A program made the translations under genes and the position numbers. Below are positions 3,819 to 22,227 of a stretch of DNA of 24,692 bases, in pieces (position 1 is the first letter of the stretch; every line of letters begins with the position of its first letter). This DNA is from a virus, in IMG/VR virus record IMGVR_UViG_3300048837_002361, positions 1-24,692 of that record; one strand, given 5' to 3'. The notes beneath the pieces were generated by a model. It worked only from the letters and a program-made list of their open reading frames with translations. It was not told the DNA's origin and ran no database searches.

Positions 3819-6761
3819 TCACAGCACCTCCTTCAACCAATCGGGCGGATTGGGAATTGGGGAATGTCGTTGCGGACATTCACCGGCACATTCACTGCCA
3901 GAAGCCATTGATTTTGTTGGCTCAGGTGAATGTGGTGAATGTGGTGAATGTTTTTCCGGGTCCTCTATCGCGCGCGCATGCGCGCGCGCGCACGTGTAGG
4001 GTCTGGAAAAACATTCACAACATTCACCGACCTCATCCATCCCATTGGGACGATTGCGAAATTCCCGGTGAATGTTGGAATTCGAACATTCACAGACATT
4101 CACAACATTCACCGCAACATTCACGGCCGGTGAATGTTGTGAATGTTTATCCGCGCCTGTTTTTTCATCAATCACCAGTCGCCAGCGTTGCGCGCCGTGG
4201 AGCGTGCCGCATTTTTCAGCGCGCACCGACACGCTGTTGAGCTGGAACACCCGATCACGTAGGCGGCCCAGCGCCTTGCCCAAACGGATGCGCTGCGAGC
4301 GGTCGTTGCCCGATCCAAGCGGCAACGGCGGTTCGCAAGTGAGCGCCGTCTCGTAGAGATCGTTGCTGCCGACCTCCGCGGTGCCGAATCGGTCCCACCA
4401 GGTCGACACGAAGCTGCGCCATACCGACCCCTCGGCATCGGAGGCCTGCATCATCTCTTCGAGGTTGCCGAGGAAGCCATCGATGCCGGCGGTCTCGAGC
4501 ACGCCACCGAGCACCTGCGCCCAGTTCTCATAGCTGCCGATGGTGCCGGTGCCGCGTGGGCGTCCCGCGGCGATCCAGCCTTGACAGAGCGTGAGGCAGG
4601 CAGTCACCAGTCGCGCGCGGTTGGCGCGTACCCAGGTCATCAGATCGGGATGGCGAAAGCCCGCGCGCTGCCAAGGCCGCTCGACATGCGCATCGAGCCG
4701 GATCCGCACAATGCGCCGCGCCATCTCGTTGGAGAATTCCGGATTGTTGCCGGTCGCGATCCAGGCGCAGCGGATTGGGAGCCGGGCCATCTCGGAAGCG
4801 CCAAGGATCCGGTCTTCCCAGAACGGCGCGGTGAGCGCGGCGGCGACTGCGGCGCTGTCGAGCTTGTTGCGCAGATTGTCGATCAGGACGATCGATGGAA
4901 TCTGCCGGAGCTTTGCGGTCACGCGCTTTCGCCATTCCTCGTCATCGCGCCCCTCGGTCATGACGGATGCGCCAGAGCCGGTGAGGATCGTGGCAATGGC
5001 GTCCACCATCAGGGTCGCGCCAGTGCCGGGTGTCGGCTTTTCGATCAGATGCAGCGGGGTGGGCCCATCGATCATGGAGCGTAGGAAGCCGAGCAGCAGC
5101 AGCGCTACGGCGTGGGCGTTCTCGGACCGTGATACGAACGGGAAGTCGCCAAGCAGATCATCGCAGATGAGCGCCCGGGCGTTGGCGATATCGTCGGCCG
5201 ATGGACGCTCCGCAATCGCCGGCACCTCGAAGCCGGGCGCTGGGGAATAGAGCAGCCGCGCATCCGGATGATAGCCGGGGGTAGTCAAAAGCCGGCCCTG
5301 GCGGCCGAACACCGGGGTGTTGACGATGCCAACCAGCACCGGCAGTCCAGGATCGGGCGTTGCCAACACCGACTTGACCAGCAGCGTCGGTGGATGGGCT
5401 GGAACGAGTTCGCCCTTGGCATTGAGGCGGCGCCAATTGCCGAGTCTCGCCAGCATGTGACGCAGCCGTTCATCGGTGAGTGCAATGGCGACCGGGCGGC
5501 CTTCGTCATCCGGTACCACCCAAGTCAGGCCGCTGGCATAGCGAAATAGCCAGGGTGTGCGGTTGGAGGCGAGCAGTAGGCTCCAAGCCTTCTCCACCGC
5601 CAGAGCAAGGTCCCCCTCGTCGGCGCGCATCAAAGGCGATGTGTCGGGCGCGCTGTAGTTGAGCGGCCGGTGCTGACCGATCGGCAACGGCTCTTCATTG
5701 GATTGTGGCTGCGCACGTTCAAGCACGGCACGCACCGCGTCCGCTCCGTCGCGCATCAGCATGTCATTGAAGTCGTCGCCGCACTGCGGCGGCAGTGCGA
5801 TTGCGGTTTCGCGACCCTCGGCCCGCAGGCGCCGCGCGGCGGTCTCGGCGGCGCGCAGACCTGCGCCCGATGCATCGTGATCGGCGAGTATGATAATGCG
5901 CTTGGCTTGTGCTGGAAGTTGTACTTGCTCCAGTCCCGAGGTCGACAGCGCGGCCCAGACGGCGAGTCTCGGGAAAGCCTTCATGATGGCGAGCCCAGTC
6001 TCGATCCCCTCGCAGAGCGCAAGCACGCCGTTGTTGCCGAGGGGAGCAAGCCGCACCGCCCCGGTGCCGTTCTTGCCCAGCACCATGCGCGGTTTGCTGA
6101 CCGGCGCCTTCGTCACGCGGTCCGGCTGCGCCGGATCGACCTGCAGATAGGTCCGGTGCAGCGCGATGACTTCGCCGTCACAACTGCGCACGATGCCGAT
6201 CAGAGCCGGACAGCCTTGCCGCGTCTCCCAATGGGTGAGATCGGCATGCGCCAACAAATCGGCGCCCTCAGGTGCATCAAGATCTCGGCTCGCGAGATAG
6301 GCTTCTGCGGCCGTGCCCTTGAGCGGACCCGCGTGCTGGAGGATGAAAGCGATCTCGCGCGCGGTGTCGTGCTGTTGTTTCGCGCTTGCTGCGGGCGGCT
6401 CCTGGCGCGCTGGCGACCTGAGAGACCAGCCTGTCAGCTCGGCGGCATGGGCATAGAGGTTTCGCCCCTTGAATCCCGTCGCCTCCTCAATCGTGCTGAA
6501 CGGTCCGCCGCCCTGGCTACCGTCAAACTCGTGCCAGTCGCCAGCATGTTCGCCCTTGAGCGCGATGACGCAGCTGCCCTGCTTGCGCGGCGGAGCGCCC
6601 TTGATGTTAGCGAGCCGCCATTCGTCGCCGACACGGCGGCCGTTCGGGAACAGACGCGGCACCCAGGTCTGCGCGCTTGCCCGCAACTCTGCGGCGATGG
6701 CGTCGAGATCGTAGCGGACCTGATGGTTCGGCGGATAAGCGACGTTGTTCAGGTCAATCAC
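3819..6761 (-). CDS. Toprim primase fused to a degenerate ATPase/helicase-like domain (980 aa)
   Basis: Large phage replication protein that starts with GTG at 6761. Residues 1-115 are an N-terminal DNA-binding/primase-associated domain. Residues about 130-350 hold a Toprim domain with E251 and E254 in LCEGIETGLAIM and D294/D296 in ILADHDASG. Residues about 380-720 form an ATPase-like module: a P-loop-like PTPGTGATLM (576-585) in which alanine 582 replaces the usual lysine, SIVLIDNLR (623-630) in the Walker B position, a sensor-like WIATGNNPE, and arginines in ARRIVRIRLD. The structured part ends near residue 866. The last about 110 residues are low-complexity His-Ser-Pro and Asn-Val-Val runs encoded by an octamer array. 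It probably primes and helps open the phage origin. It overlaps the HNH gene by 8 bp. Confidence 0.88.
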   Translation of the reverse strand: MIDLNNVAYPPNHQVRYDLDAIAAELRASAQTWVPRLFPNGRRVGDEWRLANIKGAPPRKQGSCVIALKGEHAGDWHEFDGSQGGGPFSTIEEATGFKGRNLYAHAAELTGWSLRSPARQEPPAASAKQQHDTAREIAFILQHAGPLKGTAAEAYLASRDLDAPEGADLLAHADLTHWETRQGCPALIGIVRSCDGEVIALHRTYLQVDPAQPDRVTKAPVSKPRMVLGKNGTGAVRLAPLGNNGVLALCEGIETGLAIMKAFPRLAVWAALSTSGLEQVQLPAQAKRIIILADHDASGAGLRAAETAARRLRAEGRETAIALPPQCGDDFNDMLMRDGADAVRAVLERAQPQSNEEPLPIGQHRPLNYSAPDTSPLMRADEGDLALAVEKAWSLLLASNRTPWLFRYASGLTWVVPDDEGRPVAIALTDERLRHMLARLGNWRRLNAKGELVPAHPPTLLVKSVLATPDPGLPVLVGIVNTPVFGRQGRLLTTPGYHPDARLLYSPAPGFEVPAIAERPSADDIANARALICDDLLGDFPFVSRSENAHAVALLLLGFLRSMIDGPTPLHLIEKPTPGTGATLMVDAIATILTGSGASVMTEGRDDEEWRKRVTAKLRQIPSIVLIDNLRNKLDSAAVAAALTAPFWEDRILGASEMARLPIRCAWIATGNNPEFSNEMARRIVRIRLDAHVERPWQRAGFRHPDLMTWVRANRARLVTACLTLCQGWIAAGRPRGTGTIGSYENWAQVLGGVLETAGIDGFLGNLEEMMQASDAEGSVWRSFVSTWWDRFGTAEVGSNDLYETALTCEPPLPLGSGNDRSQRIRLGKALGRLRDRVFQLNSVSVRAEKCGTLHGAQRWRLVIDEKTGADKHSQHSPAVNVAVNVVNVCECSNSNIHREFRNRPNGMDEVGECCECFSRPYTCARAHARAIEDPEKHSPHSPHSPEPTKSMASGSECAGECPQRHSPIPNPPDWLKEVL
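3876..4146. repeat. Iteron-like array: 14 copies of ACATTCAC/GTGAATGT
   Basis: I counted fourteen exact copies in 271 bp. ACATTCAC starts at 3876, 3888, 4011, 4020, 4086, 4096, 4105 and 4117. GTGAATGT starts at 3926, 3935, 3944, 4068, 4130 and 4139. Several neighbours are spaced 9 bp (3926/3935/3944, 4011/4020, 4096/4105, 4130/4139). The array lies inside the primase coding sequence and keeps its frame open, producing His-Ser-Pro and Asn-Val-Val repeats. Copies in both orientations and short irregular gaps argue against CRISPR and fit protein-binding iterons, possibly a replication origin. Confidence 0.85.
3934..4028. repeat. Long inverted repeat around an alternating CG-rich tract
   Basis: Arms 3934-3957 and 4005-4028 are 24 bp each with one mismatch; their inner 14 bp (GTGAATGTTTTTCC and its complement) are perfect. 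The centre contains 30 bp of uninterrupted pyrimidine-purine alternation (3969-3998) with a CG palindrome centred on CATG. Such tracts favour Z-DNA or cruciform extrusion under negative supercoiling. The element lies in the centre of the octamer array. Confidence 0.8.
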
Positions 6762-7508: not shown

Positions 7509-8792
7509 TCAATCGACAATCACCAGGCCCCACTCGGCCCGTGTGATGGCGGTGTAGAGCCAGCGAGACCGATCCTCCGCCGTGCGGCCGAGACCGTCGT
7601 CGAATACGACAACCGACCCGTAGGCGCTGCCTTGCGCCTTGTGACAGGTGATGGCGTAGCCCCAGACCGTCTCGATCAGTCCCCGCATCTCCTTCCAATC
7701 GCGACGGGCCCGCTCGCTGTCGAAGACAACATGATCGTCGTAGTGCCCCTTGTAGAAGCGATGCCGGCCGGCAATGGACGTACCGTCTTCGGTGGTCACG
7801 GTGGCGCTGAACGATAGGTGCCCCTCGTGCTGGATATCGGCGAGCGACACAAACATGCCGTTGATCAGGCCGAGGTCGTGACGGTTCTTGAGGCAGATAA
7901 TCTTCTCGCTACGACCTTCCGGATGCGCGCTGAGAAAGCCCGCGGCATGCTTCATGGCGGCGTTAAGATGGAGCCGCGTTGCGTTGCGGCCGCAGATCAC
8001 CTGGCCGCCGCGCAACAGCTGCTCTGCCAAAACGTCGGTCCGGCGCATTTTCCAGACATGATCGTCATGACCGCCATAGGGGATCGGTTCACCCTGCCGC
8101 GCCATTGTGGCAAGCCGGATGATGGCGCTCTCGCCCGCCTGTCGGTGGATCTCGGTCAGCATGACGTCGGGCGGTGCATCGGTGAAGGCGCCAGAGCCCT
8201 TGATCGGCGGCAACTGGCCAGGATCGCCCAGCACCAGGATCGGCTTGCCGAACGCGAGCAGGTCGGCGGCCATCTCGGATCCCACCATGGAGACCTCGTC
8301 GAGCACAATAAGCTCGGCGTCGCGAACCAGCGATTGTTCGTTGAGGACAAACCGGGGCTGGTGAATGTCGGCAAGCCGCAGCTCGAGGCGCTTGAGCCGC
8401 TCCATCGCAAACAAATGCTCGGCTGGCGGCAGGCTGCCGAGCCCGGTGCGCAAATCAGCCGCCTCCTTTTCGACTCGCGCGATCTCCTCGGGCGTTGCCT
8501 CCGAGACCCGATAGATCAGGCTATGAATGGTCGAGGCTGGCGTGCCCTTGCGCGTCATCACCAGCGCGGCCTTGCCGGTGTAGGCCGCAAACAGCACGCC
8601 GCCGGGGGCGATGCTGTCGCGGTTCTTGGGTGTGAGCCCGAGTGCGTCGATGGCATGCGCGGTGATGGTGCTCTTGCCCGAGCCGGCATAGCCGAATAGC
8701 CGAAACACCGGAGACTTGCGGCCCGGGTCGCGGTACCAACCGACAATCGCGTTGATGGCGGCGGCTTGCTGAGGTGATGGCGTGAAGGTCAT
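7509..8792 (-). CDS. RecD/Pif1-like superfamily 1B DNA helicase
   Basis: A 427-aa ATP-dependent helicase, likely 5'-to-3', acting in phage replication or recombination. The motifs appear in order: a Q-motif-like PSPQQ near residue 7, Walker A GYAGSGKST (34-42), Walker B LIVLDEVSMVGSE, motif III LVLGDPGQLPP, motif V YAITCHKAQGSAYGSV and motif VI RWLYTAITRAEWGL near the C-terminus. It is shorter than cellular RecD (about 600 aa) and lacks the N-terminal RecBC-interaction domain, as is usual for phage versions. The ATG at 8792 has GGGAGG upstream and overlaps the Cas4-like nuclease stop by 4 bp, so the nuclease and helicase are translationally coupled and may act together on DNA ends. Confidence 0.9.
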   Translation of the reverse strand: MTFTPSPQQAAAINAIVGWYRDPGRKSPVFRLFGYAGSGKSTITAHAIDALGLTPKNRDSIAPGGVLFAAYTGKAALVMTRKGTPASTIHSLIYRVSEATPEEIARVEKEAADLRTGLGSLPPAEHLFAMERLKRLELRLADIHQPRFVLNEQSLVRDAELIVLDEVSMVGSEMAADLLAFGKPILVLGDPGQLPPIKGSGAFTDAPPDVMLTEIHRQAGESAIIRLATMARQGEPIPYGGHDDHVWKMRRTDVLAEQLLRGGQVICGRNATRLHLNAAMKHAAGFLSAHPEGRSEKIICLKNRHDLGLINGMFVSLADIQHEGHLSFSATVTTEDGTSIAGRHRFYKGHYDDHVVFDSERARRDWKEMRGLIETVWGYAITCHKAQGSAYGSVVVFDDGLGRTAEDRSRWLYTAITRAEWGLVIVD

Positions 8793-15670: not shown

Positions 15671-16116
15671 CCGACACTGTTCTGGCCCAACTGGCTGCCC
15701 TGAAAGTCGCGCCGATCGGCGCGCTCAAGCAGAAATGGCGCGATCTCTTCGAGAGCGAGCCGCCGCCCTATAACAGGCGCTTCCTTGAGCATCGGCTGGC
15801 CTACCGGATTCAGGAACTGGCCTATGGCGGCCTCAAGCCCGAGACCTTGAAACGTCTGCGCGAGCTGGCCGAGACGCTCGATGGCGGCAAGGTGGATGTG
15901 CGGCGGCGCCGCGCAGACCACGATCGCCCCATCGCTGGCACCCGGCTTATTCGCGAATACCAAAGCGTTGAGCATTGCGTGACGGTGCGCGACGACGGAT
16001 ACGAGTACCAGGGTCGTCCCTACAAATCGCTGTCAGCCATTGCGCGCGCCATTACCGGCACGCAATGGAACGGGCGCGTCTTTTTCGGACTCAAAAACCA
16101 GCGGGTGGCCCGATGA
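15667..16116 (+). CDS. DUF2924 domain protein (recombinase-associated)
   Basis: A 149-aa DUF2924 protein. Diagnostic blocks are LKQKWRDLFESEPPPYNRRF, LEHRLAYRIQELAYGGL, GTRLIREYQSVEHCVTV and the C-terminal YQGRPYKSLSAIARAITG...WNGRVFFGL. The C-terminal part has the shape of a small DNA-binding fold. The start is a TTG at 15667 with GGAGG about 8 nt upstream, overlapping the previous stop; the end overlaps the recombinase ATG by 4 bp (ATGA). DUF2924 genes normally sit directly before this type of recombinase and may help it as an accessory or directionality factor; that role is inference. Confidence 0.88.
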   Translation: MTDTVLAQLAALKVAPIGALKQKWRDLFESEPPPYNRRFLEHRLAYRIQELAYGGLKPETLKRLRELAETLDGGKVDVRRRRADHDRPIAGTRLIREYQSVEHCVTVRDDGYEYQGRPYKSLSAIARAITGTQWNGRVFFGLKNQRVAR

Positions 16117-17426
16117 AGAAGCCGATCGTGCGAAAGCTTCGCTGCGCGGTCTATACCCGCAAGTCGAGCGAGGAGGGGCTCGAACAGGAGTTCAATTCAC
16201 TCGACGCCCAGCGCGAGGCTTGCGAGGCTTACATCGCCAGTCAGAAGCCAGAGGGCTGGGTGCTGGTGCCGGACCGCTACGACGACGGCGGGATCTCTGG
16301 CGCGACCCTGGAGCGGCCGGCGCTGAAACGTCTGCTGGTCGATATCGAGGACCGGCGCGTCGATGTCATTGTTGTCTACAAGATCGACCGGCTCAGCCGT
16401 GCGCTGATGGATTTCGCCAAGCTGGTCGAGGTGTTTGATCGCAATAGCGTCACCTTCGTCAGCGTGACGCAATCTTTCAATACGACGACGTCGATGGGGC
16501 GGCTGACACTCAACATCCTTCTCAGCTTTGCCCAGTTCGAGCGCGAGGTCATCGGCGAGCGCATTCGCGACAAGTTTGCCGCTTCCCGCAGGAAGGGGAT
16601 GTGGATGGGTGGTTTCGTCCCGCTCGGCTATGACGTTAGGGATCGCAAGCTGGTCGTCAATGAGGCCGAGGCGGCAGCAGTCCGGACGATCTTCGAGCGC
16701 TTCATCAAGATCGGATCCGCGACCGAACTTGTGCGCAAGCTCCGGGCCGAAAATGTCCGGGGCAAGCAGGGCAAGCTCGTCGACAAGGGCTATGTCTACA
16801 AGCTACTTAACAACCGGGTCTATGTCGGCGAAGCAGTGCACAAGGGCGTGGCGTATCCCGGCGAACACCAGGCCATCATCGACCGGGTCCTCTGGGATCG
16901 CGTCCACACCGTCCTGCGCGAGAGCCCGCGTAAGCGCGCTGCAAACACACGGGCCCAGACGCCCGCGTTGCTCAAAGGTCTAATCTTCGGGCCGACCGGT
17001 CGGGCGATGACCCCGGCGCATACGCGCAAGGGCGGCAAGCTCTACCGCTATTATGTCTCAACCGACGTGCTCAAACGTGATGCCGACGCGTGTTCGGTTC
17101 GGCGAGTCCCCGCGGCCGAGATCGAGAGCGCCGTCGTCGACCAGTTGCGCGGCCTCCTGCGCACGCCTGAGATCATTGTCGGCACGTGGCGCGCGGCCAA
17201 ATCGATGGGCTATATCTCGGAGGCCGAGGTGCGCGAGGCGCTGCACCGGCTCGACCCGCTCTGGGACGAACTCTTTCCCGCCGAGCAGGCACGCATCGTC
17301 CAGCTACTCGTCGAGCGCGTTGATGTCAGCCCGGATGGTGCCGATATCCGGCTGCGGACCGAGGGACTGACAAATCTGATCGCCGACCTGCGTGCGGTCA
17401 GACCGGAATCTCGGAGGGCGGCGTAA
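16113..17426 (+). CDS. Serine recombinase (integrase/resolvase type), 437 aa
   Basis: Large-type serine recombinase catalysing site-specific DNA exchange through a 5'-phosphoserine link. The N-terminal catalytic domain has YTRKSSEEG with the likely nucleophile S18, then DRYDDGGISGATLERPAL and KIDRLSRALMDFAKL, and the helix E block FAQFEREVIGERIRDK. A Recombinase (PF07508) domain follows (GYVYKLLNNRVYVGEAVHKG). The zinc-ribbon region (LKGLIFGPTGRAM...YYVSTDVLKRDADACSVRRV) keeps the spacing but has F/T and S where cysteines are usual. The 437-aa length is short for the family. The start at 16113 overlaps DUF2924 by 4 bp, and the stop overlaps the next start (TAATG). Confidence 0.92.
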   Translation: MKKPIVRKLRCAVYTRKSSEEGLEQEFNSLDAQREACEAYIASQKPEGWVLVPDRYDDGGISGATLERPALKRLLVDIEDRRVDVIVVYKIDRLSRALMDFAKLVEVFDRNSVTFVSVTQSFNTTTSMGRLTLNILLSFAQFEREVIGERIRDKFAASRRKGMWMGGFVPLGYDVRDRKLVVNEAEAAAVRTIFERFIKIGSATELVRKLRAENVRGKQGKLVDKGYVYKLLNNRVYVGEAVHKGVAYPGEHQAIIDRVLWDRVHTVLRESPRKRAANTRAQTPALLKGLIFGPTGRAMTPAHTRKGGKLYRYYVSTDVLKRDADACSVRRVPAAEIESAVVDQLRGLLRTPEIIVGTWRAAKSMGYISEAEVREALHRLDPLWDELFPAEQARIVQLLVERVDVSPDGADIRLRTEGLTNLIADLRAVRPESRRAA

Positions 17427-17830
17427 TGGGCGAGCACCATTCCAACGGCGACGGTCGTAGCGTGACTGTGAGGGTGCCGATTTCGATTCGTAGGCGAGGC
17501 GGGCGAAAGCTCGTCCTCGCGCCCGACGGCGCCGAGGTGACTGCCGCCCCCGTGACCCGGCATGTCGACAACGTCATGGTCAAGGCTCTCGCCCGGGCGT
17601 TCCGCTGGCGCGATATGCTGGAGAGCGGCGAGTACGCCACCATTCGCGAGATCGCCGCCGCCGAGAAGATCAACGAAAGCTATGCCGGTCGTGTGTTACG
17701 GCTGACGCTTTTGGCCCCGGAGCTCGTTGAGGCGATCATGCAAGGTCGGCAGCCGGCATGGTTAGGGCTAAATGTTTTAATGAAAGGGCTGCCGGCCTTG
17801 TGGTCTGAACAGTTGCCGCGGGCCTCCTGA
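17426..17830 (+). CDS. KorB/ParB-like helix-turn-helix protein of the recombinase cassette
   Basis: A 134-aa basic protein. Residues about 52-110 carry a helix-turn-helix region (ATIREIAAAEKINESYAGRV) followed by LRLTLLAPELVEAIMQG, which resembles the KorB/ParB HTH-to-helix pattern. The N-terminal about 45 residues are Arg/Val-rich, without a domain. It is the last gene of the coupled cassette, with TAATG at the join. It may be a recombination directionality or repressor protein; there is no direct evidence. A CCTGAAT/ATTCAGG hairpin overlaps its stop. Confidence 0.75.
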   Translation: MGEHHSNGDGRSVTVRVPISIRRRGGRKLVLAPDGAEVTAAPVTRHVDNVMVKALARAFRWRDMLESGEYATIREIAAAEKINESYAGRVLRLTLLAPELVEAIMQGRQPAWLGLNVLMKGLPALWSEQLPRAS

Positions 17831-17845
17831 ATGCTCTGATTCAGG
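17826..17845. terminator. Stem-loop at the end of the recombinase cassette
   Basis: A perfect 7-bp stem CCTGAAT/ATTCAGG with a 6-nt loop spans the stop codon of the HTH gene. No T-run follows, so factor-independent termination is doubtful. It could limit read-through into the restriction locus or be an RNA-stability element. Confidence 0.3.
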
Positions 17846-18097
17846 ATGCGGCCCGGCCCTGCGGGTGACGGCCCCTGTCGCGCGATAATGTGCCCTCGAC
17901 CGGCTGCGGTCGGTCCCGCATCCCGCTTGCGGAGCGCTATGGTGATGCTCCTTCGGCTGCCCTAATACCGGTTCTCGGGCTGCCGAATTGACCGGAGTTG
18001 CGTTTAACCGCCGAATGCCATTCGCCCGCCTAGGAGTTTGCGATTGCACACGGATCGGGGCAATTTGGGCAGATTCGCGGGAAGGGAGCTCAGCTGA
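17831..18097. other. 267-bp intergenic region before the type III R-M locus
   Basis: This stretch contains a CGACCG/CGGTCG hairpin (loop GCTG, near 17895-17912) and a GGGAG Shine-Dalgarno-like run ahead of the mod ATG at 18098. I find no tRNA, no convincing ORF and no clear -35/-10 pair. It presumably holds the promoter of the restriction-modification operon. Confidence 0.5.
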
Positions 18098-19612
18098 ATG
18101 CCGATTTTACAGTGGTTAGACCGCGAAAAGCACGTTCGCGCGGCCGAAGCCATTCCGTATCGCTTGCTGGAGGCCGACGACACGCATAGCGCTGGCGATC
18201 CCGATACGCCCAACATGCTTATTCAGGGAGACAACCTGGAAGCGCTCAAAGCGCTGCTGCCTTACTACGCCGGCCGTGTGAAATGCATTTACATAGACCC
18301 GCCGTACAACACCCGGAGTGCGTTCGAGCACTACGACGATAATCTAGAGCATAGCATTTGGCTGGGCACGATGCGCCCGCGTCTCGAAATTCTAAGAAAC
18401 CTCTTGTCGCCGGATGGATCGATCTGGGTTTCTATTGACGATAACGAAGGTCATTATCTTAAGGTGCTGATGGATGAGGTCTTCGGCAGAAACAAATTCC
18501 TAATCACCAATCTCTGGCAAAAGCGATTTTCTCGCGAAAACCGAGAGGCGATAGGGGACTCGCATGACTTTATATTGGCTTATGCACTCGATCCAATTGC
18601 CTTCAAAGCCCAGCGCAACCTTCTGCCTTTAGGCGAAAAGCAGAGGGCTCTGTACCGAAACCCTGATGATGACCCTCGTGGGCCCTGGCAATCGGTCTCA
18701 CTGCTCGCGCAGGGATATCGACCCAACCAGATGTACGAGATCACCGCACCGAATGGTCGCGTGCATGTGCCACCTCCTGGAAATTGCTGGAAAGTTATCC
18801 GCTCCGAGTACGACAAGCTAATCAAAGATAACCGTGTGTACTTTGGCCAAAATGGGCAAGGCGTTCCTCGCCGAAAGGAGTTTCTGTCGAACGCAAAAGG
18901 TCTAGTGCCGTGGTCGTGGTGGCCTCATGAAGAGTGCGGGCATACCGGGGAAGCGAAACAAGAAGTAAACGAATTGTTCGGCGCGGATGTAAGCTTTGGA
19001 ACGCCAAAGCCTGAGCGTCTGATACAGCGAATACTTCATATCGCGACGAATCCAGACGACCTGATTCTGGACTCGTTTCTCGGCTCGGGAACCACGGCCG
19101 CTGTTGCTCACAAGATGGGTCGCCGCTACATCGGAATAGAAATGGGCGAACACGCGCTAACCCACTGCATTCCCCGGCTCAGCAAGGTTGTTGAAGGTGA
19201 GCAAGGCGGTATTTCCGAAGCAGTTGGGTGGAAAGGCGGCGGGGGCTTTCGCTTTTACAAGCTCGGCGCGCCAATTTTCGACGCCTCGGGCCAGGTTAAT
19301 CCTGAGATCAAGTTTGCGCACCTCGCCGCGCATGTTTGGTTTTCCGAAACACACACCGCGCTCCTAAAGCGCGCGCGCGGCCCGCATTTGGGCACCCATA
19401 ACGGCGTTGCCTACTACCTGCTTTACAATGGGATTCTCGGCGACAAGAGGCCCGACGGTGGCAACGTACTGACTATGAAGACGCTGCAGCAGCTCCCAAA
19501 GCACGACGGTCAAAAAATCATTTACGGAGAAGCCTGCCGGATCAGTACCACGCGGTTGAACCAGTTGGGTGTCGTGTTCAAACAAACGCCCTATGATTTG
19601 AAAGCGCGATAA
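18098..19612 (+). CDS. mod: Type III restriction-modification DNA methyltransferase subunit (Mod)
   Basis: A 504-aa adenine-specific methyltransferase of the beta group, which gives the type III system its sequence recognition and protects the host. The catalytic DPPYNT is at 67-72 and the AdoMet-binding FLGSGTT at 327-333, the order expected of type III Mod. GDNLEALKAL (44-53) is the usual motif before DPPY. The region between about 135 and 300 is the target recognition domain and carries a WSWWPHEECG segment. Type III Mod proteins are often 600 aa or more, so this is compact. It overlaps res by one base (TAATG). Its base composition is visibly more AT-rich than the phage operon, which suggests separate acquisition. 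Confidence 0.93.
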   Translation: MPILQWLDREKHVRAAEAIPYRLLEADDTHSAGDPDTPNMLIQGDNLEALKALLPYYAGRVKCIYIDPPYNTRSAFEHYDDNLEHSIWLGTMRPRLEILRNLLSPDGSIWVSIDDNEGHYLKVLMDEVFGRNKFLITNLWQKRFSRENREAIGDSHDFILAYALDPIAFKAQRNLLPLGEKQRALYRNPDDDPRGPWQSVSLLAQGYRPNQMYEITAPNGRVHVPPPGNCWKVIRSEYDKLIKDNRVYFGQNGQGVPRRKEFLSNAKGLVPWSWWPHEECGHTGEAKQEVNELFGADVSFGTPKPERLIQRILHIATNPDDLILDSFLGSGTTAAVAHKMGRRYIGIEMGEHALTHCIPRLSKVVEGEQGGISEAVGWKGGGGFRFYKLGAPIFDASGQVNPEIKFAHLAAHVWFSETHTALLKRARGPHLGTHNGVAYYLLYNGILGDKRPDGGNVLTMKTLQQLPKHDGQKIIYGEACRISTTRLNQLGVVFKQTPYDLKAR

Positions 19613-22227
19613 TGGCTATCACACTCAAAAAATATCAAGTCGCGACGCTTGCCGCATTGAAGGAGTACCTGGAAGCTGCGCGCACCATTGGTGCCAAACC
19701 CGCCTATGAGCAGCTTGATAAAGCTGGTGTCGCCGAAACACGGGCATATCAACCGCTGCAAGGGCTCGAAACAGTCCCCTATGTTTGCCTGCGTCTCCCG
19801 ACCGGCGGCGGGAAAACCTTGCTATCCGCGCACACAGTCAAGGTTGCTGCCGATGCCTACCTGGAAAAGGAGTTTCCGATTGTTTTGTGGATGGTGCCGA
19901 CCAACACGATCCGATTACAGACCCTCGAAACTCTCCGAAAGCCCGGCAATCCCAATTACGAAGCACTGAGCGAGGCCTTTGGCGGCCGTTTCCGCGTGTT
20001 TGACATTGCAGATTTTGTGCAGATCACGCCTGCCGACTTGAAATCCAATGCCTGCATTATCGTAGGTACGATGCAGACCCTTCGGGTGAACAATACAGAT
20101 GGCCGGAAGGTCTATGCCCACAACGAGAACATTGAGCCGCATTTCAGCGCGGTACCGAACAGCACGCCGGGCCTGGACGTGATTGAGGATGGGGATGACA
20201 AGGGCAAGCTAAAGTTCAGCTTCCGGAATTTGCTGGCGCTGCATCGTCCGCTGGTCATCGTGGACGAAGCCCACAACAACACGTCCGCGCTGAGTTATGA
20301 GGTTCTGCAGCGCGTTAATGCGGCCTGCGTTGTTGAGTTCACGGCCACGCCGGCCGACGACAGCAACGTATTGCATAACGTCTCGGCCACCGAGCTCAAA
20401 GCCGAGGAAATGATCAAGCTGCCGATCCGGCTCACGGAGCACAAGAGTTGGGAGGATGCGGTCCGCGACAGCATACTGACCCGGCAGCGCTTGGAGGACC
20501 TTGCGCGAACCGACGCCGACTACATCCGTCCGATTGTTCTCTTCCAGGCCGAGGAGAAGGGACAGGAAGTCACCAAGGAAATCCTTGAAAAGCATCTGGT
20601 TGAGCAAGAGAAAATCCCACGCGACAAGATCGCGATGGTGACCGGTGATCAGCGTGAGCTGGATGGTATCAATCTTTTTGCTCCCGACTGCAAGATTGAC
20701 TTCGTGATCACCGTTGAAGCCTTGAAGGAGGGCTGGGATTGTTCGTTTGCCTACGTTTTTTGTTCGGTCGCGACCGTCAAGTCAAAGAAGGACGTTGAAC
20801 AGATACTGGGCCGCGTTCTCCGTATGCCCTATGCCAAGAAGCGCAAGGAATCCGACCTCAATCGCGCCTACGCCCATGTCTCCCGCGCGTCCTGGCCAAA
20901 TGCCGTAAAGCAGCTCCACGACCGGCTTGTGGACATGGGTTTCGAGGATACCGAAGCCGATGCCTTCATCGAAAAGACCGGGGACCTGGAGCTGATCGGC
21001 GGCAGTATCGGTTCACTGTTCGACAAGGTGCCGCCGCCGACGGTCATAGACCTTCCGGATGATCTGACGGCGCTGGAGCTCACCATGGAGGAGCAGTCGG
21101 CCGTCAAAATTGAGAAGACCGATCAGGGGACGCGCGTGACCTTGAGCGGCCAGGTCTCCGAGGACGTGATCGCCAAACTCAGCGAAGCCGTCAAAAGCGA
21201 TGAGGGCCGGCAGAACCTGCAGGCTGAAGCCAAGCGGCACAAAGCGGTGTGGCAGCTTTATTCGTCGCCGGCAGAGCGCAAAGTGCCGTTTGCGTTGCCG
21301 CAGCTCAGCTTCACCTTCGAGGGCGAGCGCGAGCTTGCCGAACAGGAGGCGTTTTTAGGCCTTGGGGGGTGGAACCTGCTGGATTATCCGGCCGAGCTTT
21401 CCGAAACCGATTTCAAGCTCACCGAGAGCGGGGTCGAATGGGAAATCGACCTCAACCGTGCCGGAAAAATCACCGAAAAGACCGTGGGCAAGGCCGAGCA
21501 GTATAACCTTGATCTGATTGATACCGGCTGGACCGATGAGCAGCTTTGCCGCTGGCTAGAGGGGAAGGTCAGACAGCCTGATCTCACACAGCCCGTTGTC
21601 CTGGAATATGTACGCCGGACAATGGCGCATCTGGAGAAGCGGCGCTTGCCGTTGACGGCTTTGGCACGTTGGAAGTTTGTGCTGTCAAAGGTCCTGGTAC
21701 AGAAGATCAGTCAGCACCGCGGACAGGCCAGCAAAGATCGTTACCAGCAGTTCCTGTTTGCGCCAGATGCCAAGGTCGAGGCGAGCTTTGATTTTAGCTT
21801 CGACTTTGCGGCCGTGCCGTACGCTCCGCATTGGAGTTATGTCGGACATCCTTATCAGTTCCAGAAGCACTACTACGCAGCGATTGGAGAGCTGAAGAAC
21901 CAGGGCGAGGAATATGAATGCGCCAAGGCGCTCGATATGAACGCCAAGGTGAAGCATTGGGCCCGAAATCTTGACAAGCGCGGGTTCTGGTTGCCGCTGG
22001 CCCAGAGAAAGTTCTATCCCGATTTCGTCGCTGAGCTGATCGATGGCCGGTTCTTGGCTCTGGAACACAAGGGTGAGATTTATGCGACCAACGACGACAG
22101 CAAGGAGAAGCTGAACATCGGCGGCCTTTGGGAAGAAACGAGCGGGGGCAAGGCGCTATTCTTGATGACCGTGGTGGAGAAAGGCAAGCCTGGGCTATCC
22201 GAGCAAATTGCCGCGAAGGTCGGCTAG
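19612..22227 (+). CDS. res: Type III restriction endonuclease subunit (Res)
   Basis: An 871-aa helicase-nuclease that, with Mod, translocates and cuts unmodified DNA. Superfamily 2 motifs: Walker A PTGGGKT (63-69), TMQTLR, DEAH (218-221), FTATPA (243-248) and QILGRVLRMP (motif VI). The C-terminal endonuclease has the PD-(D/E)XK signature with D804 (YPDF) and E818/K820 (EHKGE). Length and domain order are normal for Res. All catalytic motifs are intact, so the locus is likely active. It overlaps mod by one base, so the two are co-translated. A DUF3800 remnant begins 20 bp downstream. Confidence 0.95.
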   Translation: MAITLKKYQVATLAALKEYLEAARTIGAKPAYEQLDKAGVAETRAYQPLQGLETVPYVCLRLPTGGGKTLLSAHTVKVAADAYLEKEFPIVLWMVPTNTIRLQTLETLRKPGNPNYEALSEAFGGRFRVFDIADFVQITPADLKSNACIIVGTMQTLRVNNTDGRKVYAHNENIEPHFSAVPNSTPGLDVIEDGDDKGKLKFSFRNLLALHRPLVIVDEAHNNTSALSYEVLQRVNAACVVEFTATPADDSNVLHNVSATELKAEEMIKLPIRLTEHKSWEDAVRDSILTRQRLEDLARTDADYIRPIVLFQAEEKGQEVTKEILEKHLVEQEKIPRDKIAMVTGDQRELDGINLFAPDCKIDFVITVEALKEGWDCSFAYVFCSVATVKSKKDVEQILGRVLRMPYAKKRKESDLNRAYAHVSRASWPNAVKQLHDRLVDMGFEDTEADAFIEKTGDLELIGGSIGSLFDKVPPPTVIDLPDDLTALELTMEEQSAVKIEKTDQGTRVTLSGQVSEDVIAKLSEAVKSDEGRQNLQAEAKRHKAVWQLYSSPAERKVPFALPQLSFTFEGERELAEQEAFLGLGGWNLLDYPAELSETDFKLTESGVEWEIDLNRAGKITEKTVGKAEQYNLDLIDTGWTDEQLCRWLEGKVRQPDLTQPVVLEYVRRTMAHLEKRRLPLTALARWKFVLSKVLVQKISQHRGQASKDRYQQFLFAPDAKVEASFDFSFDFAAVPYAPHWSYVGHPYQFQKHYYAAIGELKNQGEEYECAKALDMNAKVKHWARNLDKRGFWLPLAQRKFYPDFVAELIDGRFLALEHKGEIYATNDDSKEKLNIGGLWEETSGGKALFLMTVVEKGKPGLSEQIAAKVG

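Follow-up and report, generated by a model that had tools for sequence, protein, structure and literature searches.

An octamer array inside a phage primase gene, inferred to be an origin read by the gene's own C-terminal winged helix

Why should the 3′ end of a phage replication gene be crowded with copies of a single octamer? The window, the whole stretch of a virus record that we analyzed (24.7 kb; 24,692 nt), contains 14 exact ACATTCAC/GTGAATGT octamers at positions 3876-4146, eight on the plus strand and six on the minus strand by exact-match count, where chance would place 0.004 copies of ACATTCAC within 271 bp. A first-pass annotation had proposed that these are iterons bound by the primase itself or by a partner, with the gene carrying its own origin. 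Our analysis supports binding by the primase itself: with a probability of roughly 85%, we read the array as the iteron field of a phage origin inside the 3′ end of its own initiator's gene, of the P4/SaPI type, with the block exchanged as a specificity cassette. Binding of the octamer by the initiator is strongly supported by covariation, a recognition code, and the predicted fold, in the absence of binding data. Origin activity is inferred by analogy with known systems, without wet evidence.

All 14 octamers lie within the open reading frame 3819-6761 (-), in its last 110 codons and past the last predicted folded domain. None of 100 shuffles of the window reached 15 octamer copies; a single extra ACATTCAC at 8361 is within chance (shuffle mean of 0.48 per window), and an octamer with one mismatch at 3860-3867 (-) makes a fifteenth array copy. 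In gene orientation, the layout reads >9>13<12<9<10<18>48<9<67>9>9>38<12<16>, in which 9-bp spacing is frequent and inverted arms of 19-31 nt are present. The earlier description of the cluster is therefore confirmed in its density, in its two orientations with frequent 9-bp steps, and in its place at the 3′ end of a replication gene, here a 980-aa Toprim primase-ATPase; the low-complexity tail said to accommodate it is indeed predicted to be unstructured (Table 1). The switch in GC skew that had been suggested as a check was not clearly seen at the array, the signal being weak. What the first reading missed is that the octamer differs between homolog lineages, that IHF-like sites lie in the spacers, and that a 30-bp alternating tract occupies the center.

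Table 1. Coordinates, strands, and supporting evidence of the features of the initiator gene and its octamer array in the window.
Feature	Position	Strand	Evidence or detail
Primase-ATPase-winged-helix initiator gene P0001, 980 aa	3819..6761	-	Pfam Toprim_3, DUF7146; PHROG 10537, 510; AF2 model
Zinc-binding-like and Toprim primase region, residues 1-360	5682..6761	-	Domain matches; structure comparison 1q57 Z 16.4, 1d0q Z 8.1
ATPase/helicase-like region, residues about 380-775	4437..5624	-	PHROG 10537 match; P-loop-like KPTPGTGAT, sensor-like ATGNN; poorly modelled
Winged-helix domain, residues 775-867, inferred octamer-binding	4161..4439	-	AF2 pLDDT 85.5; fold matches; covariation
Predicted recognition helix, residues 820-834, including 821, 825, 829	4260..4304	-	AF2 model and covariation
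Predicted wing hairpin, residues 844-864; 855 and 857 at turn	4170..4232	-	AF2 model and covariation
Low-complexity, unstructured C-terminal tail carrying the array	3822..4160	-	pLDDT below 50 for 867-980; frame open in 112/112 homologs over 900 aa
Outer octamer block nearest winged helix	4068..4146		4139(-), 4130(-), 4117(+), 4105(+), 4096(+), 4086(+), 4068(-)
Inner octamer block, 2 copies 9 bp apart	4011..4027	+	Starts 4011, 4020
Inner octamer block, 3 copies 9 bp apart	3926..3951	-	Starts 3926, 3935, 3944
Outer octamer block nearest stop codon	3860..3895		3876(+), 3888(+), 3860(-, 1 mismatch)
IHF-consensus-like site AATCAATGGCTTC, 1 mismatch, in 30-bp spacer	3901..3913	-	Consensus comparison
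Purine/pyrimidine-alternating tract, 30 bp, array center	3969..3998	.	Tract scan

The first 360 residues of the initiator model like a T7 gp4/DnaG-type primase (AF2). With regard to the P4-type union of primase and helicase in one protein, the Toprim primase half is clear, and the ATPase-like half is poorly modelled with a lysine-less P-loop; because the P-loop is without its lysine, helicase activity is uncertain. In the conserved P-loop-like KPTPGTGAT or GTGAS (window 4990-5070, residues about 565-590; L315, L317), alanine replaces the Walker A lysine; the relatives L310 and L311 have GTGKS, and in the window family the P-loop of the ATPase-like domain is non-standard. The region that follows, modelled as residues 775-872, is predicted to form two helices, a third helix at 820-834, and a hairpin at 844-854/857-864. 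A fold search with this model returned winged-helix proteins, including Z-alpha domains, as its best matches, but these were middling, and its sequence gave no convincing match to solved structures.

We collected 112 distinct homologs over 900 aa from viral contigs, genome contigs, and alphaproteobacterial genomes; the full-length protein was found in no cultured phage of the collection searched. Every one of the 112 tails carries an array, and the octamer word differs between phages (ACATTCAC, ACGTTCCC, AGGCTCAC, AGGTCCCC, AGGTTCAC, ATCCTCCC, and others). In 109 homologs, the words fall into 21 types of the form AnnnnCnC, beside which stands a CCTCACAC class in shifted register. Within one gene, the copies largely vary in concert, with minority variants mostly one letter off, and across lineages, orientation is near-constant and spacing closely conserved (typically <20<17>38<9<9<64-70>9>9>38<12<16>). 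Mean identity among homologs is 68% in the core, 48% in the winged helix, and 31% in the tail, and the proposed check, that the array be kept at the DNA level while the tail drifts, holds on both counts. Homologs without the octamer had been named as grounds for refutation; they exist in the literal sense, as most lack ACATTCAC, but in its place they have a different octamer, one that agrees with the recognition helix they encode. No second octamer cluster was detected in the loci (36 copies outside the array versus 43 expected) or in the L007 record, which spans 40 kb, and these records are possibly fragments. The arrays of L018, L043, L076, L095, and L116 mix two or three variants of the octamer and look like states between specificities. 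In L010, the frame stops after 892 aa while the octamers go on; this could reflect a frameshift, or else the tail peptide may be dispensable.

The octamer can be read from the protein. Mutual information with octamer positions is highest in the winged helix, directly before the tail: helix residues 829, 825, and 821 track octamer positions 2, 3, and 4, as do residues 857 and 855 of the wing for positions 5 and 7. In a tree-aware co-change test over 605 variable columns, using a tree built from residues 1-780 with the winged helix excluded, residues 829, 825, 821, 857, and 855 each ranked 1/605 for their respective positions (p = 2.7e-10, 4.3e-10, 1.0e-7, 1.3e-15, and 4.9e-11). Shared ancestry alone does not explain this co-change, because all protein columns share one tree. 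The N-terminal domain, which the first-pass annotation had taken as the octamer-binding part, is not borne out, as the covariation points to the C-terminal winged helix, residues 775-867.

Across 1343 single sites, position 2 pairs K829 with C (480/566; some T), R829 with T, I/M829 with G, and L829 with C. Position 3 pairs T825 with G (983/1040), I825 with A or C, and V825 with C, and position 4 pairs R/K821 with T and N/H821 with C (N821, 125/125), Q821 being mixed. In the wing, A857 goes with T at position 5, T/S/V857 with C (T857, 127/128), and L857 with A, while H855 goes with C at position 7 (814/840) and R/Q855 with A (Q855, 218/219). A residue-to-base code had been written down before further homologs were fetched. 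When applied to 18 new homologs with AnnnnCnC octamers, several of them close relatives of one another, it was correct at 86/87 covered positions, compared to 67/90 for a guess of the commonest base; the sole miss was L215, with V825 and T at position 3. A nineteenth new homolog belongs to the CCTCACAC class, outside the code's cover. This octamer class, seen in L049, L099, L129, and L191, goes with a different helix start (KTVDTAELGRG or similar) and a shifted register.

In the predicted structure, residues 821, 825, and 829 lie on helix 3 with i, i+4, i+8 spacing, and 855 and 857 lie at the turn of the wing; as far as the model can be trusted, the five residues are positioned as expected for a winged helix bound to DNA. 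Pairing of K829 or H855 with a C:G pair, and of Q855 with A, fits the usual chemistry. R821-T and N821-C go against it, and the contacts at residue 821 may therefore be indirect. That the initiator's DNA-binding domain determines the iteron sequence is supported by covariation and out-of-sample prediction, evidence that is statistical and not physical. Recombination linkage of the adjoining winged helix and array could add to the correlation, but linkage would not yield residues spaced i, i+4, i+8 that each follow a single base.

Comparison of close relatives suggests how specificity changes. DNA identity between L197 and L287 is 94-98% up to about codon 820, drops to 52% in the wing and 69% in the array, and returns to 91-97% from the gene end; L260/L285 and L053/L061 have a similar pattern. 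Judged from these alignments, such divergence fits the replacement of a block holding wing and array together; rapid divergence of the block is a remaining possibility. Since the recognition domain lies next to its inferred target within the same gene, a single recombined segment of a few hundred bases can bring in a new specificity.

The spaces between octamers are also patterned. Sites bent by IHF or a similar protein are a common, though not universal, feature of iteron origins. In most homologs, IHF-like consensus sites occur in the 30-bp spacers, mostly at a fixed position and inverted, one per strand; the right spacer comes within one mismatch of the IHF consensus in 63% of cases and the left in 84%, versus 0.3% for control windows of the same genes. 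In the window, only one of the two sites is recognizable (3901-3913), the left one being degenerate. At the array center, an alternating tract has a median of 28 bp across homologs versus 6 in controls, and the length of the center varies mostly in steps of three. An AT-rich melting region, usual but not universal in iteron origins, is absent from the array center, which is GC-rich instead (62% GC and alternating in the window, with spacers of 48-50% GC). Purine/pyrimidine-alternating tracts can form Z-DNA or cruciforms.

These elements can be rationalized into a working model. The winged helix would read A-n2-n3-n4-n5-C-n7-C, with 829, 825, and 821 setting bases 2, 3, and 4, and 857 and 855 setting bases 5 and 7. 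Two half-sites, roughly inverted, would flank the GC-rich alternating tract, each built of tandem octamers 9 bp apart, a 30-bp spacer usually with an IHF-like site, and further octamers. By inference, IHF would bend each spacer, initiator molecules would load on both halves as two oligomers, and the DNA between them would open; the same initiator protein would then unwind and prime, and a host polymerase would extend.

Systems of this kind are known. Lambda O has its origin inside the initiator gene and type-specific iterons, as inferred here, but it is a loader of the host helicase and not a primase-ATPase. A close layout is that of P4 (alpha protein, ori, and crr; NC_001609), where the primase-helicase gene gives way at once to clustered octamers, oriented both ways and including tandem pairs 9 bp apart. 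P4 octamers (GGTGAACA and variants) make up the annotated crr directly 3′ of the alpha gene, with the spacing >9>43<18<14> occurring twice; the ori cluster reads <10<11<22>43<10<, and the inverted step is 43 bp. The P4 iteron TGTTCACC has seven letters in common with ATGTTCAC, found among the present arrays. In contrast to the single in-gene array here, crr is not part of the alpha coding region, and P4 has a further octamer cluster about 4.7 kb away; separate ori and crr clusters were not seen in our loci or the L007 record, fragments though these may be. No sequence similarity between the DNA-binding domains was detected, hhalign of the winged helix against P4 alpha giving no match, and the P4 origin-binding domain is absent among the fold-search matches listed, which neither shows nor excludes homology.

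In SaPI, PICI, and SCCmec elements with Cch2-type proteins, a C-terminal domain recognizes iterons located immediately 3′ of the helicase gene (PMC7581432), and PICI origins have two iteron sets around an AT-rich region (PMC6092414). SaPI/PICI Rep and SCCmec Cch2 resemble the present initiator, as inferred, in reading iterons with a C-terminal domain, whereas their iterons lie outside the gene; here, they are in-gene, the center is GC-rich and alternating, and the primase is Toprim-type. In geminiviruses, closely related members have different iterons, each set interacting with its own Rep in a sequence-specific manner (PMC12548392), but Rep is a rolling-circle initiator of an ssDNA virus with iterons upstream of the gene. 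In Vibrio PLE, the origin and the RepA initiator domain vary together as exchangeable modules, and origin-directed nucleases such as Odn may select for diversity (PMC8263062); unlike here, RepA is of the RepA_N family and its iterons, of about 30 bp, lie in a non-coding region. Among distant relatives, L312 has a CCTATGCC array inside the ORF tail and L314 a TGGCCACA array directly 3′ of the gene; scanning with the L312 protein brought up no viral relatives. L317, a Methanosarcinales virus, encodes a related protein (PHROG 10537) followed directly 3′ of the gene by nine TACCCGCA. Relatives of the ATPase region in Caulobacter phage phiCbK, Ruegeria phage RpAliso, and phage phiAsp2 have no comparable array near the gene. 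N15 repA was considered as an in-gene octamer comparison and rejected, as no octamer array occurs in 20000-36000 of NC_001901. A literature search found no earlier report of such arrays, with most subscription journals outside its reach. In summary, the kind of system is known, and the variant consists of the in-gene placement, the one-array layout, the GC-rich center, and the readable code.

Could the array serve another purpose? The initiator might bind it mainly as a regulator, by autorepression or as a transcription roadblock before the RuvC-like gene, with the origin elsewhere. Initiators often autoregulate, and the array does sit at the border with the downstream gene. We consider this unlikely, as the 3′ end of the gene is no promoter position, 12-14 octamers, arranged in two half-sites and accompanied by IHF-like sites, exceed a repressor's need, and no second octamer cluster was seen in the loci or the L007 record. 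Partition and packaging sites also use repeat arrays, but a centromere-like or packaging function is very improbable: no result of the analysis points to it, the octamer varies with the DNA-binding domain of the replication protein itself, and neither a partition pair nor a small terminase is among the genes identified.

Two readings place selection on the gene products, and we give hardly any weight to either. Inverted octamers might pair in the transcript and control expression; inverted arms do exist, and concerted change would preserve pairing, but an RNA-level element does not account for the base-by-base tracking by recognition-helix and wing residues, for the IHF-like sites, or for the arrays directly outside the gene in distant relatives. 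Selection of the short peptide repeats as protein is just as hard to sustain. The frame stays open in all homologs over 900 aa, 107 of which have WL within the last 12 residues, yet copies in two orientations and several frames yield different peptides, and the tail is poorly conserved and predicted to be disordered. An origin inside the initiator gene remains our preferred explanation.

The initiator gene is accompanied by genes for a Dda-like helicase, a Cas4-type exonuclease, a Sak4-type ATPase, and a RuvC-like resolvase. Farther along, window positions 15975-22227 hold a serine recombinase followed by an apparent restriction-modification pair (a methylase-like ORF at 18098-19612 and a helicase-like ORF at 19612-22227), judged from translations only.

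It is a long-standing question how an initiator and the dozen copies of its target can switch specificity in step. This family provides no fewer than 21 octamer types and a readable amino-acid-to-base code, together with mixed arrays resembling intermediates and pairs of nearly identical genes whose difference lies in the specificity block. From five residues, the code predicts which octamer a phage carries, and it is testable at the bench with a small domain; the array could help locate likely origins in uncultured prophages. More tentatively, and with less than even confidence, we suggest that a large family of alphaproteobacterial prophages may keep its whole origin in the initiator gene and diversify its identity by exchanging a wing-or-helix and array block of a few hundred bases, possibly against cross-use, incompatibility, or origin-directed nucleases, with the GC-rich alternating center as a new opening element.
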